Part shown: piece after piece, positions 5,375-52,461 of the stretch
Position numbering within the stretch: position 1 is the stretch's first letter
Layout: the number at the start of each line of letters is the position of its first letter
NCBI GenBank assembly: GCA_035454885.1
Contig: DATIGE010000040.1
Location: 1 to 64,000, forward strand
Length of the DNA stretch: 64,000 bases
Source: a bacterium
Lineage (GTDB): Bacteria > UBA10199 > JACPAL01 > GCA-016699445
Direction: 5' to 3'
The notes under the pieces: generated by a model
The model's database searches: none
The model's input: only the letters and a program-made list of their open reading frames with translations
Told to the model about the DNA's origin: nothing
Translations under genes and position numbers: made by a program

Positions 5375-6030
5375 TGATCCAGGAAGTCTTCATCCTTTAC
5401 GGCTGTGTCCTAGCCGCCATCACGACCCTCTTTCATCTCAAGGGAGTCCCGTTCGTCCGCGAGTCCCTCTCGGCATTGGTCGCCGTCCTTCTGGTCTATC
5501 CGGCCTTCTGGCACACGCAAAAAAGGCGGCTCCCCATCGTCTTTTTCGAGAGGGACGCCGCGCACGCCCTGAGGTCCGTCCGGCTCTTCACCGTCACGGC
5601 CGCCGTGATCTTTCCCCTCTTCTTCCTCGCGGCGCATTTTTACCAGACGTTGATCTTCGGCCTGGAGTTCAGCACGCGCGGCCTCAACTGGAGCTGGAGC
5701 GAAGCCGCCATCCAGGTCCTGCTGGTCGCCCTTCCGGAGGAGTTCTTTTTCCGCGGCTATCTGCAAAGCGCCCTGGCGACTCGTTTTCCCAAACGCTTCC
5801 GCCCTTTGGGGCTCAAAGTTCTGGAGGTCTCCTGGGCCGTCCCCCTGACCTGCCTGATCTTCGCCGCCTCCCACAGCATCATCACCTTCCGCTGGTGGCA
5901 CTTCGCCATCTTCTTCCCGTCGCTCGTCTTCGGCTGGCTCCGCGACCGGACGGGCGGACTCATCGCCCCCGTCCTCTTTCACACCGCGAGCAACCTGGCG
6001 ATGCGGCATATCGGACAGTTATATAGATGA
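5374..6030 (+). CDS. CPBP-family (CAAX-type) intramembrane glutamic protease
   Basis: 218-residue polytopic protein. All three motifs of the CPBP/Abi family are present: EEFFFRG (EExxxR), FAASH (FxxxH) and FHTASN (HxxxN), each embedded in hydrophobic helices. Members cleave peptides within the membrane; some act in prenyl-protein or bacteriocin processing and some behave as sortase-like enzymes. No C-terminal sorting tag was seen in the proteins of this window, so the substrate is unknown. The start overlaps the Lgt-paralogue stop by 1 nt (TGATG) and the stop overlaps the next gene by 4 nt. Confidence 0.88.
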   Translation: MIQEVFILYGCVLAAITTLFHLKGVPFVRESLSALVAVLLVYPAFWHTQKRRLPIVFFERDAAHALRSVRLFTVTAAVIFPLFFLAAHFYQTLIFGLEFSTRGLNWSWSEAAIQVLLVALPEEFFFRGYLQSALATRFPKRFRPLGLKVLEVSWAVPLTCLIFAASHSIITFRWWHFAIFFPSLVFGWLRDRTGGLIAPVLFHTASNLAMRHIGQLYR

Positions 6031-6761
6031 CGGTCACGATCCATCTTGAAGACCCGGATTTCGTGATCGTGGAGAAACCGGTAGGTATTTCGACGCAGCC
6101 GCTGTCGTCCCGTAGGGGCATGGCGCGCCACAGCGCAGCAGTCCCGCCGCGGGATGCCCCTACATTGGCCCATCAGGTCTCCGCATCCTTCCCCGAGATT
6201 CAATCCGTCGGCGGTTCCGATTGGGGCGCCGTCCACCGGCTGGATCGGGAGACCTCGGGGCTCGTCGTCTTCGCCAGGAATCAGAAGGCCTACGAGGCCC
6301 TGCGCCGGGCGTTCTCCAAGAACGAGGTCGAGAAGGAATATGCGGCGTTGGTGGAAGGAGAAATTCAACAGGCCGGAACGATCAACTGGCCCATCGGGCC
6401 GGATCCCAAGAGCGACAAGCGGGTGAAGGTGTACCGGAACGTCGCGGAGGCGAGGAGGATGAAGGCACAGGAGGCGGTGACCATTTATATGCCCGTAGGG
6501 GCGAACCTCGTGTTCGCCCCATCAACGCTGCTTCGGGTTACCATCAAGTCCGGTCGCCGCCACCAGATCCGCGCACACTTGGCGGCCCTGGGGCATCCGA
6601 TTATCGGCGATGAAGTGTACGGGTCGCCACAGGCCGGGCGAACACAAGGTTCGCCCCTACGATTACACCTCCACGCCTCGCGCCTTAGATTCCGGCATCC
6701 GCGGACAGATCTGCGGGTGGAGGCGTCCTCCCCCGCCTCCTTTTCCGAAGCGCCTGTATAA
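6027..6761 (+). CDS. RluA-family pseudouridine synthase carrying three in-frame palindromic insertions
   Basis: Converts uridine to pseudouridine in structured RNA; target not determinable (rRNA or tRNA). 244 residues without an S4 domain. The catalytic Asp is D73 in AVHRLDRETSG; other blocks are KEYAALVEG, SGRRHQIRAHL and LHLHASRL. Three stretches that do not belong to the family fold come from palindromic DNA: residues about 29-46, 156-165 and 203-212, encoded at 6111-6164, 6494-6520 and 6635-6661, with lengths of 54, 27 and 27 nt that keep the frame. The last 77 nt overlap the 3' end of murJ on the other strand. The enzyme may be functional or damaged; the open frame favours expression. 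Confidence 0.9.
   Translation: MTVTIHLEDPDFVIVEKPVGISTQPLSSRRGMARHSAAVPPRDAPTLAHQVSASFPEIQSVGGSDWGAVHRLDRETSGLVVFARNQKAYEALRRAFSKNEVEKEYAALVEGEIQQAGTINWPIGPDPKSDKRVKVYRNVAEARRMKAQEAVTIYMPVGANLVFAPSTLLRVTIKSGRRHQIRAHLAALGHPIIGDEVYGSPQAGRTQGSPLRLHLHASRLRFRHPRTDLRVEASSPASFSEAPV
6111..6164. repeat. Palindromic element copy 1 (in frame in the pseudouridine synthase gene)
   Basis: Outer arms GTAGGGGCAT and ATGCCCCTAC enclose a GC-rich 34-nt centre. The 54-nt unit (18 codons) adds residues about 29-46 between the ISTQPLS segment and TLAHQ, a position where the family normally has only a short link. This is the longest of the copies seen. Confidence 0.8.
6494..6520. repeat. Palindromic element copy 2 (in frame)
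   Basis: CGTAGGGGCGAAC followed by a short loop and GTTCGCCCC; the outer TAC of the right arm is missing. The 27 nt add nine codons (PVGANLVFA region) just before STLLRVTIKSGRRHQ, interrupting the strand that leads into the conserved RHQIR motif. Confidence 0.8.
6635..6661. repeat. Palindromic element copy 3, opposite orientation (in frame)
   Basis: Reads GGGCGAAC, loop, GTTCGCCCCTAC on the + strand, the reverse of copy 2. It inserts nine codons (AGRTQGSPL region) between GDEVYGSP and RLHLHAS, motifs that are normally almost adjacent. Confidence 0.8.
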
Positions 6762-9611: not shown

Positions 9612-12044
9612 TTATGACACCACGAGGTTGATGAGTTTGTTGGGGACGTGAATGACCTTGGCGACGCTCTTGCCCTCCAAGAAGCGTTTCACGTTCTCGT
9701 CCTTCAAGGCGAGGTCGCGGGCCGCGTCTTGGCCAAGCCCCGCGGGCGCCTCGAGCCTGGCGCGGACCGTGCCGTTGACCTGGACGACCAAAAGGATTGT
9801 CTCGACTTTGAGCGCCGACTCGTCAAAGGCGGGCCATCGCGACAGTGAAACCAGGTCCTGACGGCCCAGCAGTCTCCACAACTCCTCGCCCATGTGCGGC
9901 GCGAACGGGCTCAGGAGTTGCGCGAAGGACTCGAGAGAGGCCCGCGAGGGACTTCGCCCGAGATCGTGCAAGGCGTTGTAGTATTCCATCAGGGCGGCGA
10001 TGGCCGTGTTGAATTGAAAGCGGTCCAGGTCCTCCGTCACCTTCTTGACGGTTCTGTTCCGCCAGCGTTTTTCCTCCTCGCCATCCGGCCCGAAGGAGTC
10101 GATCGATTCTTGGACAAGTGTCCAAACGCGCTTGAGGAACCGGTAGGCGCCTTCGACGCCCTGGTCGTTCCAATCGAGATCCTTCTCCGGCGGCGAGGCG
10201 AAGAGCGAAAAGAGCCGGGCCGTGTCCGCCCCGTAACGTTCGATCAGGTAGTTCGGATCGACGACGTTCCCCTTCGACTTGCTCATCTTCGCGCCGTCCT
10301 TGATGACCATGCCTTGGGTCAGCAGGTTCTTGAAGGGTTCGCGGACGCCGGCGTCGAGGAAGCCCAGGTCGACCAGGACCTTGGTGAAGAATCGCGAGTA
10401 GAGGAGATGGAGGACGGCGTGCTCGATCCCGCCGATGTATTGGTCGACACCGCCGTCCTTCATCCAATAAGCGACGGCCTTGGGGTCGAACGGAGCCTTG
10501 TCGAACCTCGGGGAACCGTAGCGCAGAAAATACCAGGAGGACTCGACGAAGGTGTCCATCGTGTCTGTCTCGCGGCGAGCGGGTTTCGCACATTTGGGGC
10601 AATTCACGTTGACGAACGAGGCGATCTTCGCGAGCGGGGAGCCACCCTTGCCGGTGAACTCGACGTCGAGCGGGAGTTTCACCGGCAGGTCCTTCTCCGG
10701 CACCGGCACGGTGCCGCAGGCGTCGCAATATACGATGGGGATCGGTGCCCCCCAGTAACGCTGGCGGCTGATGCCCCAGTCGCGGAGTTTGTAGTTGAGG
10801 GTCTTGCGACCCATTCCTTTCTTTTCGATGTAGGCGACGATCTTCTTCTTTGCCTCCTCCGAGGGCAGGCCGGTGAATTGCTGCGAATTCACCAAAACAC
10901 CAGCATCTTCGAACGCCTTTTGTAGGGGCCGTTCATGAACTGCCCCTACGGGATCGATCACAACCTCGATCGGAATCCCGTAGTTCTTCGCAAACTCAAA
11001 ATCACGCTGATCGTGAGCCGGCACGGCCATGACGGCCCCCGTGCCGTATTCCATCAAGACGAAATTGGCCGCGTAGACCGGGAGTTTCTTCCCCGTGAGC
11101 GGGTTCATCGCAGAGACGCCGGTGAAGACCCCTTCTTTCTCGTAATCGTCGGTCAGGCGCTTGGCCCTGTCCATTTTGGCCGTCTTTTCCGCGAATTCCC
11201 GGACGGCCTTCTCCTGGGGAGTCCCTCTCGAAAGCTCCAAGGCGAGCGGGTGCTCGGCCGCCAGCGACATGAACGTGGTGCCGTAAAGGGTGTCGGGACG
11301 CGTCGTGAAGATCTTGATCGCTTGTTTCTTCCCCTCGATCGGAAAGTCGACCTCCGCCCCCTCGCTCTCCCCGATCCACTCGCGCTGCATGGTGAGCACG
11401 CGCTCGGGCCAGCCCTTGAGGTGGTTCGTTTCGTCGAGCAGCTCCTGGGCGTAGGCCGTGATCTTGAAAAACCACTGGTCGAGAGGCCGCTGCTCGACCG
11501 TCGAGTCGCAGCGCCAGCATCTCCCCTGCTCGACCTGCTCGTTGGCGAGCACCGTCTCGCACTTGGGGCACCAATTCACGAACGAGCGCTTTTTGTAGGC
11601 CAGCCCTCTTTCATACATCTTGAGAAAGACGAGCTGTTCCCAGCGGTAGTATTCGGGCCGGCAGGTCGCGATCTCGCGTTCCCAATCGTAGGAAAACCCC
11701 ATCTTCCGGAGTTGGACCTGCATGGAGGAGATATTCTGATCCGTCCACTTCGCGGGATGGGTCTTGTTCTCGATCGCCGCGTTCTCCGCGGGCATGCCGA
11801 AGGCGTCCCAGCCGATGGGGTGCAGGACGTTGAACCCCCGCATCTTCTTATAGCGGGCGATGACGTCCCCGATGGAGTAATTGCGGACGTGCCCCATGTG
11901 GATCCTGCCGGAGGGGTACGGGAACATTTCCAGGCAATAGTATTTGGGCTTGGAGCCGCCTTCGGAGGCGCGGAAGGTCTTTTGATCCTCCCAGACCTTT
12001 TGCCACTTCGGTTCGACGGATTGGGGATCGTAGGGTTCTTTCAT
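9612..12044 (-). CDS. leuS: Leucyl-tRNA synthetase with an in-frame palindromic insertion in the editing region
   Basis: Class I synthetase charging tRNA-Leu; 810 residues. HIGH is HMGH at residues 49-52 ([11 protein letters not shown]) and the KMSKS loop is intact (AKMSKSKGN). The CP1 editing domain is present (residues about 220-420; [24 protein letters not shown]). Residues about 365-375 ([11 protein letters not shown] region) come from a 30-nt palindrome at 10921-10950, located after the PIEVVID segment and before the [11 protein letters not shown] segment, which other LeuS proteins join with a short loop. Because LeuS is normally essential and the frame is open, the insertion is presumably tolerated. 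holA follows closely. Confidence 0.97.
10921..10950. repeat. Palindromic element copy 4 (in frame in leuS)
   Basis: Arms GTAGGGGC and GCCCCTAC around GTTCATGAAC; nearly perfect palindrome (one C/T mismatch pair inside). The unit is 30 nt, ten codons, and falls in a surface loop of the CP1 editing domain. Confidence 0.85.
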
Positions 12045-24201: not shown

Positions 24202-24232
24202 TGTAGGGGCGAACGTGGTGTTCGCCCCCTAG
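24202..24232. repeat. Palindromic element copy 5, providing the pgsA stop codon
   Basis: TGTAGGGGCGAAC, loop, GTTCGCCCCCTAGG on the + strand. Read on the minus strand, the outer CTA is the TAG stop of the pgsA-like gene (24229-24231), so the element defines the end of that protein. Confidence 0.8.
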
Positions 24233-30649: not shown

Positions 30650-32569
<1,920 letters not shown>

Positions 32570-36166: not shown

Positions 36167-36216
36167 AGAAGGAACCGGACGCTGTGGACGCCGAATTCGA
36201 GGAAGCTAAGGAGTAA
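36167..36216 (+). repeat. Right copy of the dnaK 3' end (displaced gene end)
   Basis: 36167-36191 equals 32520-32544; the following codons encode AEFEEAKE and a TAA stop, the same residues as the intact DnaK tail with different third bases. It is in frame with the barrel remnant upstream (frame open from 36049), not with a chaperone gene, so it is a detached tail. Beyond it, 36217-36478 holds only AT-rich regulatory sequence. Confidence 0.8.
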
Positions 36217-36260: not shown

Positions 36261-36280
36261 TTCTCAAAATGAGAATAAAT
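36261..36280. promoter_or_regulatory. Fur-box-like inverted repeat
   Basis: TTCTCA, AAA, TGAGAA (36261-36275) in an AT-rich stretch continuing TAAATT. Resembles degenerate Fur-type hexamers (gAGAAT, cAAAAT). It lies about 36 nt upstream of a promoter-like pair for the 1374-residue surface protein. Confidence 0.35.
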
Positions 36281-36315
36281 TAACCCACTATTCTTTATCA
36301 TTATGGATTGAAAAG

Positions 36316-45112: not shown

Positions 45113-45142
45113 CGTAGGGGCGCGGAACCGCCACGCCCCTCC
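45113..45142. repeat. Palindromic element copy 6 (intergenic)
   Basis: CGTAGGGGCG with ACGCCCCTCC and an imperfect centre; 30 nt, in the gap between the radical SAM gene and the Cys-rich protein gene. One arm position has drifted (TCC for TAC). Confidence 0.7.
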
Positions 45143-45164: not shown

Positions 45165-45194
45165 CATAATAATTATCATAATGAGAATAATAAT
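45165..45194. promoter_or_regulatory. Fur-type hexamer array
   Basis: Five contiguous hexamers of the NAT(A/T)AT kind: cATAAT, aATTAT, cATAAT, gAGAAT, aATAAT. Runs of three or more such hexamers are the classic binding pattern of the ferric uptake regulator. About 90 nt upstream of the Cys-rich secreted protein gene. Confidence 0.55.
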
Positions 45195-45282
45195 ACACAA
45201 TATACGTTTAATCTTTACACTACGATCTATTAGGGTGACAATCTATCCACACTTAAATCAATGGAGGGGGGTGAAACAACCG

Positions 45283-51176: not shown

Positions 51177-52461
51177 AGAGCTTTTTCTCGCCAAGGAGGG
51201 TTTTCCGGACATCCCGTTCGAGGCGATCCTCAAGACGGACCTGCTCCGCCAGGGCGTTTCCTTCTCGCCCGAGGCCCTGGAAATTTGCCGGACGGCGAAG
51301 CCGAAGTCCTACTTCATCTTTTCGTTCGACCGGGCGGAGCAGAAGGACCTTTCGGAGATGGAGCGCCGCTCCGTACCGGAGGAGATCGCTCTCATCGGCG
51401 GGCCTTTTGACCTGAAACGGACAATTGTGTCCGCGCGGGTGAATCCGGGGTCGGCGTATCGCATTGATGCTCCTGTAGGGGCGCATGGCCATGCGCCCCT
51501 ACAATTACGCACCGATAATTCCATTTTATCCGAGATCCAATTACCCCAATTCCCCGCCTACTACGGCGTCCCTTTGGCGAACGGCAAACCCGTCGCCGAT
51601 ATCGCGCCCACCATCGAATGGGGATATCTGATCTATCTGACCGCCTTCCGCCTCTGCCAGTATTTCGGCGCGGAGGAGGAATGCCAGTTCTGCGACATCA
51701 ATCACAACTACCGCCAGCAGAAGCACGTCGGTCGGCCTTACACCGGCGTGAAGTCGCCGGAGGAGATCCTCGATGCCCTCGCGATCATCGACGAAAGGGA
51801 CTCGGAGCGCCTCAGCCGCGCCTATACCGTCACCGGCGGGAGCGTGACCTCGACGCTGAACGGTCAAGGCGAGGCGGAGTTCTACGCCCAATACGCGCGT
51901 GCGATCGAAAAGAGGTTTCCGGGCCGATGGATCGGCAAGGCGGTCGTCCAGGCCCTGCCCGAAGAGGAAGTCAGGGTCCTCAAGGATGCGGGCTACACGA
52001 TCTACCACCCGAACTACGAGGTCTGGGACAAGCGCCTCTTCGAGACCCTCTGCCCGGGCAAGGCCCGTTACGTGGGCCGAGACGAGTGGGTGAAACGCAT
52101 CTTGGACGCCGCAAGGATCTTCGGCCCCGAAAACGTCATCCCGAACTTCGTGGCGGGCGTCGAGATGTCCAAACCCCATGGCCTCGATTCGGTCGACGGC
52201 GCGATCCGATCGACGGCCGAGGGCCTCGACTTCTTCATGTCGCAAGGAATCCTGCCGCGCTTCACGGTCTGGTGCGTGGAGCCAAACACGGAGCTCTCGA
52301 AGACCAACGACGGGCCGCCGCCGCTCGCGTACTACGTTCGTCTCTTGCAGGTTTACCGGGAGATCTTCCGGAAACACCGGTTGCCGATCCCACCGGGCTA
52401 CGGCGCGGCGGGATTGGGCAAGGCGGTCTTCTCGGTGAGCGCGTTCATGGACATTTTGTAG
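51163..52461 (+). CDS. Radical SAM protein with CX8CX2C motif, in the menaquinone cluster
   Basis: 432 residues. The cluster motif is CQYFGAEEECQFC (about residues 165-177), CX8CX2C in place of the usual CX3CX2C, set in a TIM-barrel with TGGSVTSTL and later PNFVAGVEMSKPHG. It is not MqnE or MqnC by its cysteine pattern. Ten residues (about 104-114) come from a perfect 30-nt palindrome at 51474-51503. Translation overlaps mqnA, so a step linked to menaquinone is likely; the chemistry is not known to me. Confidence 0.75.
   Translation: MPSPKELFLAKEGFPDIPFEAILKTDLLRQGVSFSPEALEICRTAKPKSYFIFSFDRAEQKDLSEMERRSVPEEIALIGGPFDLKRTIVSARVNPGSAYRIDAPVGAHGHAPLQLRTDNSILSEIQLPQFPAYYGVPLANGKPVADIAPTIEWGYLIYLTAFRLCQYFGAEEECQFCDINHNYRQQKHVGRPYTGVKSPEEILDALAIIDERDSERLSRAYTVTGGSVTSTLNGQGEAEFYAQYARAIEKRFPGRWIGKAVVQALPEEEVRVLKDAGYTIYHPNYEVWDKRLFETLCPGKARYVGRDEWVKRILDAARIFGPENVIPNFVAGVEMSKPHGLDSVDGAIRSTAEGLDFFMSQGILPRFTVWCVEPNTELSKTNDGPPPLAYYVRLLQVYREIFRKHRLPIPPGYGAAGLGKAVFSVSAFMDIL
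51474..51503. repeat. Palindromic element copy 7 (in frame, perfect)
   Basis: A perfect 30-nt palindrome: left half TGTAGGGGCGCATGG, right half its reverse complement. Ten codons inserted between the ARVNPGSAYRI segment and RTDNSILSEIQ. Confidence 0.9.

Follow-up and report, generated by a model that had tools for sequence, protein, structure and literature searches.

In-frame GTAG-type REP elements in an RluA-family gene and other conserved genes of an uncultured bacterial lineage

A single RluA-family pseudouridine synthase gene carries three short palindromic elements in frame. They are GTAG-type REP units of two families, A and B, both of which are dispersed through the genome; family A is associated with a RAYT gene. 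The units sit in frame in loops of conserved proteins, and in sister lineages the same loops are used again. The gene lies in a stretch of 64,000 nucleotides (the window), part of a 2.76 Mb draft genome in 82 contigs (G000). To explain these elements, we propose that they are selfish GTAG REPs, probably moved by RAYTs, that landed independently and were kept only where a surface loop tolerates them. We consider this explanation very likely. The gene is thus a rich, well-supported example of a known phenomenon: coding-sequence GTAG REPs that behave like Rickettsia palindromic elements (RPEs) but are not RPEs.

Three REP units in one intact gene

The product of the host gene matches PF00849 (E 4e-30, profile search) and TIGR00005 (rluA_subfam, 156 bits). 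Foldseek matches of its predicted model are 2i82 (RluA) and 1qyu (RluD). A CAAX-protease gene lies directly upstream, as it does at loci L007, L008, L009 and L017 from four other families, and MurJ on the other side is shared with L007 (one family). By this synteny, the gene is a true orthologue of its counterparts in other families within the order or class.

A preliminary description of this DNA reported three GTAGGGGC/GCCCCTAC-type palindromes in one open frame, which is what we find (Table 1). The proposed lengths of 54, 27 and 27 nt had taken in neighbouring bases. The exact units measure 52, 25 and 25 nt, so that divisibility by three does not belong to the elements themselves. The three were also described as copies with shared arms. 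Sites 2 and 3 are indeed the same family A unit, but site 1 belongs to family B and contains an insert of 24 bp.

Table 1. Features of the window discussed in the text
Feature	Position	Strand	Basis
RluA-family pseudouridine synthase gene, 244 aa, all three elements inside	6027..6761	+	PF00849, TIGR00005, fold, synteny
Site 1: double-foot REP of family B, coding for RRGMARHSAAVPPRDAPT; its 28-bp palindrome, GTAGGGGCATGGCGCGCC..ATGCCCCTAC, is interrupted by 24 bp	6112..6163	.	insert flanked by exact family B sequence
24-bp in-frame sequence within site 1, outside the family B palindrome	6130..6153	.	palindrome interrupted after nt 18 or 19
Site 2: REP unit of family A, GTAG+GGGCGAACCTCGTGTTCGCCC; product VGANLVFA, located in the turn that joins two strands	6495..6519	+	0 mismatches to family A pattern
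Site 3: family A REP unit in opposite orientation, encodes GRTQGSPL, loop after GDEVYG	6636..6660	-	0 mismatches to family A pattern
Further family A REP unit, not in frame in a gene	24203..24227	+	family A pattern search
GTAGGGGCGCATGGCCATGCGCCCCTAC, a palindrome with two feet, read in frame (VGAHGHAPL) within a long ORF resembling a radical-SAM protein	51475..51502	.	identity by eye; no Pfam match for the ORF

Sites 2 and 3 are one asymmetric unit of 25 nt, GTAG followed by the hairpin GGGCGAACCTTGTGTTCGCCC with a variable loop, in opposite orientations. Each has one exact GTAG foot beside the hairpin, which is normal for an asymmetric REP. Between them lie 116 nt of conserved RluA coding sequence, which rules out a single REPIN spanning both sites; they are two solo units. 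Site 1 has GTAG and CTAC feet at its two ends, and its undivided form, GTAGGGGCATGGCGCGCCATGCCCCTAC, is a double-foot palindrome of 28 bp. The right half of the split element matches nothing else in the genome. All three sites fold into hairpins better than every shuffle (z of -3.6, -6.0 and -4.5 for sites 1, 2 and 3).

The catalytic motif HRLDRETSG (HRLDxxTSG with the catalytic Asp) and the other invariant residues are intact. An AlphaFold2 model built on an alignment of 35 sequences has a mean pLDDT of 89.7. Confidence is low only at residues 31-40 (site 1), at residues 201-210 (site 3, where the loop has a pLDDT of about 62) and at the C-terminal end. In the same model, DSSP strands 151-156 and 166-173 flank the turn at site 2. 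The enzyme core is untouched, three loops are extra or rewritten, and the enzyme is probably still active. The REP loops may be neutral for the enzyme. A decaying pseudogene, which the preliminary description had named as the finding that would speak against it, has no support: the frame is open, the catalytic residues are in place and the model matches RluA and RluD.

The protein gains fewer residues than the elements encode

For site 1, the span between fixed residues is 49 residues compared with a median of 37 in 34 distant homologues. For site 2 it is 23 residues, where most of the 34 homologues have exactly 20. The span at site 3 is 16 residues, compared with 9-10 in the relatives L007, L008 and L019 and 17-19 in others. 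The net gain is therefore about 12, 3 and 6 or 7 residues, in total about 22 and not the 36 or so first suggested. A precise absence of segments of 18, 9 and 9 residues, as an insertion of the proposed lengths would predict, finds no support in the homologue lengths.

MoeA gains 4 residues from a 28-bp element and RluD 3 to 4, so that here too the element is longer than the net gain. TsaD differs from these two with a gain of 11 residues. Plain insertion does not account for everything, since the elements often exceed the net gain. Either the arrival of an element removes host bases, or compensating deletions came later. Among the relatives compared there is no clean empty site (the genus is represented by one species), and in the nearest orthologues the same loop is filled.

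The units are dispersed through the genome

The arms seen in the window gene recur across the genome. Our catalogue, compiled from pattern searches and selected stretches, contains about 90 GTAG-type units in G000, while controls contain about 0. The family A pattern (25 nt, at most three mismatches) has 6 matches in the window compared to 0.02 in shuffles. Across G000 there are about 66 non-redundant family A units and 0 matches to the reversed pattern. Family B, the 28-bp kind, is present in 17-18 copies with three arm variants; beside these copies we saw no target duplication. GTAG-type elements are found in 23 of 60 genomes.

Stem variants of family A change on both sides (GAAC/GTTC, GATC/GATC and GAAT/ATTC). 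This covariation yields 7 double-changed cells, against 0 of 500 shuffles. Since both sides of the stem change together, the hairpin is what is kept.

In-frame units in many conserved genes

In G000, 18 conserved genes contain at least 24 in-frame units, including the three in the window gene, and the RAYT gene carries further ones. PurL, QueA, TsaD, Tgt, PBP1C, Lnt, TyrA, RluD, GltB, MoeA, HemD, an ABC-F ATPase and RimO contain such units. RibD, the E2 acyltransferase and the NAD(P)HX epimerase/dehydratase (NnrDE) contain two each, and the 18th gene encodes a probable radical-SAM protein (no Pfam match). Hence, the window gene exemplifies an RPE-like load that extends over the whole genome. 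PBP1C carries two intact units and a decayed third; genes therefore differ in their tolerance.

That three units in one gene are unusual, as the preliminary description stated, holds for random scatter over genes: three units in any one gene have a probability of about 0.001, assuming 2,600 genes and a length distribution. Carrying in-frame units is less special, as about 17 other conserved genes do so. In the RluD paralogue of G000 (L181 1501-1524; G000:C3:38205), a family B palindrome lies in frame just before the HRLD motif.

The two families differ in how often they are found within genes. For the 28-bp kind 12 of 18 copies are in genes, compared to 11 of 59 for the 25-nt kind outside the RAYT locus (Fisher P 2e-4). 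A deletion of 28 bp would break the frame, which may lock these copies into genes. Family A can be read without a stop in five of six frames and family B in four of six. In-gene copies of family A use every open frame, while the frame that contains TAG is unused.

Most family A copies are not in frame in genes. For copies outside verified genes this status comes from a codon-usage score and ORFs rather than from an annotation. The score is unreliable near elements (it missed all three RluA sites), and thus in-gene status was taken from homology.

A RAYT gene carries the same units

G000 contains a RAYT-type gene on contig C68, with the HUH motif MPNHIHG and the Tyr region WQRNYYERIIRN. Against NF047646 it scores 58.8 bits; the match is split, which keeps it under the cut-off of 80. 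Family A units lie upstream and downstream of this ORF, and also in frame inside it, between the HUH and Tyr motifs. RAYTs of this type are present at C68 and C32, and there is a third, weak NF047646 match; a RAYT specific to family B was not found in G000.

A search with the C-terminal half of the RAYT as query yielded 27 loci with the full HUH-to-Tyr stretch, and in 27 of 27 this stretch contains one or more feet (GTAG or CTAC) of such an element. Across the class, the HUH strand of RAYT genes (L005 1141-1782; L259 1172-1666; L260-L278; L279-L307) is followed immediately by a REP or REPIN in frame. Quentin et al. 2018 (PMC6006769) have described in-frame REPs inside the RAYT gene, together with double-foot REPs, in TnpA-REP subclass 2.4.

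Sister lineages fill the same loops with unrelated palindromes

The loop of site 2 in RluA is occupied differently in two sister genomes. In G003 it contains a complete REPIN, whose unit occurs about 18 times in G003 and is absent from G000. In G001 it contains a different palindrome of 42 bp. GTAG elements with other stems are found at the same place in MoeA and RimO (G003), RibD (G002), TsaD (G001), PurL (G004) and RluA (G003). Non-GTAG palindromes fill the same loops in RluA and RluD (G001), Tgt (G002) and RibD (G003); those in RluD of G001 and Tgt of G002 are CCCCCTTTGTCAAAGGGGGA-like. Several sister genes have no element at the loop.

In a list of 16 orthologue palindromes, merged by hand, 9 are no more than 5 residues away from the G000 site, where 0.8 are expected (P 4e-9). 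For GTAG elements alone it is 5 of 9 (P 1e-5). The null model treats every position in a gene as equally likely, so that general loop tolerance is part of this signal. Because unrelated elements share places, loop tolerance is the simplest reading. A single earlier case is known from recB, in which two Xanthomonas species carry different REPs at about the same site (PMC3733652).

In MoeA the agreement is exact to the base. The GTAG palindromes of G000 (L196 1506-1533) and G003 (L220), which represent two families of bacteria, have different stems, yet begin and end at the same bases, and their ends coincide with conserved V-G-x-P-L codons. Other repeat families, with peptides of the SRNP..RFHGDD, GPPLAKGG and PPLSKGETGG types, are found at the same or nearby loops in other genomes (RluA-like L012, L018 and L019; Tgt L207; RluD L214).

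Origin of the elements

REPs of the GTAG type are mobile DNA of the non-autonomous kind, cognate to RAYT (REP-associated tyrosine, Y1/HUH) transposases. RAYT-driven movement, filtering by selection and neutrality for the enzyme are the parts of our explanation that we infer. A RAYT such as the one on C68 would recognize GTAG plus hairpin on single-stranded DNA. It would then cut and rejoin the unit, copying it elsewhere without target duplication. For the E. coli TnpA-REP, cleavage and rejoining of REPs have been reported (PMC6006769). Given the few stops in the units, copies that arrive in a tolerant surface loop and keep the frame could survive, and other copies would be purged from genes or left between genes. 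In the RluA-family gene of the window three tolerant loops would have been filled.

Alternatively, a REP may have entered each place only once, in the ancestor of the order, and whichever REP family is active in a lineage may later have overwritten its sequence there, through gene conversion or replacement by a RAYT. Such a history would leave behind what is seen in MoeA (the same base at both ends in G000 and G003), RimO, TsaD, RibD, PurL and RluA, namely GTAG elements that differ in sequence but share their position. The non-GTAG palindromes in the same loops instead point to loop tolerance, and several sister genes have no element there, which is why we regard a single ancestral entry as unlikely. 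A related and similarly doubtful idea is that certain loops are long-lived docking places for REPs. Elements would be exchanged by whichever family is active in the lineage, and host codons would often be replaced and not just added to. If so, the sequence turns over but orthologous positions remain occupied from family to family.

Independent landings also have to be weighed against usefulness and chance. Selection could keep the elements as useful peptides or RNAs, for example as regulatory mRNA hairpins or RNA-binding loops, and the arms of many in-gene copies are perfectly paired. Recent copying explains intact arms as well. Moreover, the proteins are unrelated, every open frame is used, the sequences involved are unrelated, and orthologues lack or exchange the elements, so that we think a useful function very improbable. 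That the palindromes arise by chance in a GC-rich genome (the window has a GC content of 62%) or through the assembly of a draft in 82 contigs is practically out of the question. Controls are near zero, the same type is found in 23 of 60 genomes and frames are conserved; copy numbers and in-frame positions refute it.

Relation to known repeats

A GTAG foot beside a hairpin of 20-40 bp defines the GTAG superfamily of REPs, in which copies within genes are an accepted minority (PMC3733652). The elements of the window have this tag and hairpin, occur in many copies and, for family A only, flank a RAYT. The word 'extragenic' in the REP name does not fit the three elements described here, all of which lie within a gene. 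The dispersed REPs of Di Nocera et al. 2013 (PMC3733652) share the GTAG foot and hairpin, and some are located wholly within ORFs in frame. They also include several inserts in one gene (uvrA of Opitutus) and tRNA pseudouridine synthase genes among the targets. Our case differs from theirs in the uncultured lineage, in the three units from two families that one RluA-family gene contains, and in a same-loop effect across many genes in one order.

TnpA-REP subclass 2.4, or RAYT group 4, likewise has double-foot REPs (ends GT[AG]G and C[TC]AC) and in-frame REPs between the HUH and Tyr motifs, as in the RAYT on C68 (PMC6006769). We liken the C68 gene to this group by these features. In contrast to subclass 2.4, the units of the C68 RAYT are also found in many host genes. 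REPINs consist of two inverted REP units and a spacer (PMC3116915). This arrangement is seen in the C68 RAYT and in the RluA orthologue of G003, unlike at sites 2 and 3.

The preliminary description compared the elements to RPEs. The behavior is indeed comparable, since RPEs are in-frame palindromic repeats in conserved genes (Ogata et al. 2000, 2002, as cited in PMC3733652 and PMC2229807). Membership is ruled out by the tag, which is GTAG and not CGTC. According to PMC3733652 and PMC2229807, RPE-4 and RPE-6 carry CGTC, RPE-1 measures 105-146 bp, and there is apparently no transposase dedicated to CGTC repeats. The units here measure 25-28 nt, and a RAYT is present in the genome.

Earlier work had already described REPs that lie in frame in genes (Di Nocera et al. 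2013), REPs within RAYT genes (Quentin et al. 2018) and the RPEs of Rickettsia. New are the host lineage, the RluA-family gene with three elements together with its decorated RluD paralogue and, as the freshest part, the reuse of loops in many genes. The genome provides a clear and countable case in which conserved enzymes have amino acids written into them by mobile DNA, and it has a transposase gene that carries the same units. Unrelated palindromes occupy the same loops in sister genera, so that the set of elements maps insertion-tolerant loops in conserved proteins. Whether REPs target loops or selection merely spares them there becomes testable.

Other repeats in the window

Two more hairpins of the GTAGGGGC...GCCCC type, with other stems, are located at 10922-10949 (GTAGGGGCCGTTCATGAACTGCCCCTAC) and 45115-45142 (GTAGGGGCGCGGAACCGCCACGCCCCTCC). 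An AT-rich repeat with a AATGAGAATAA core, reminiscent of Fur boxes, occurs at 36261-36296 and 45173-45208. A direct repeat of 49 nt (88% identical) at 32520-32568 and 36167-36215 is apparently part of two similar genes.
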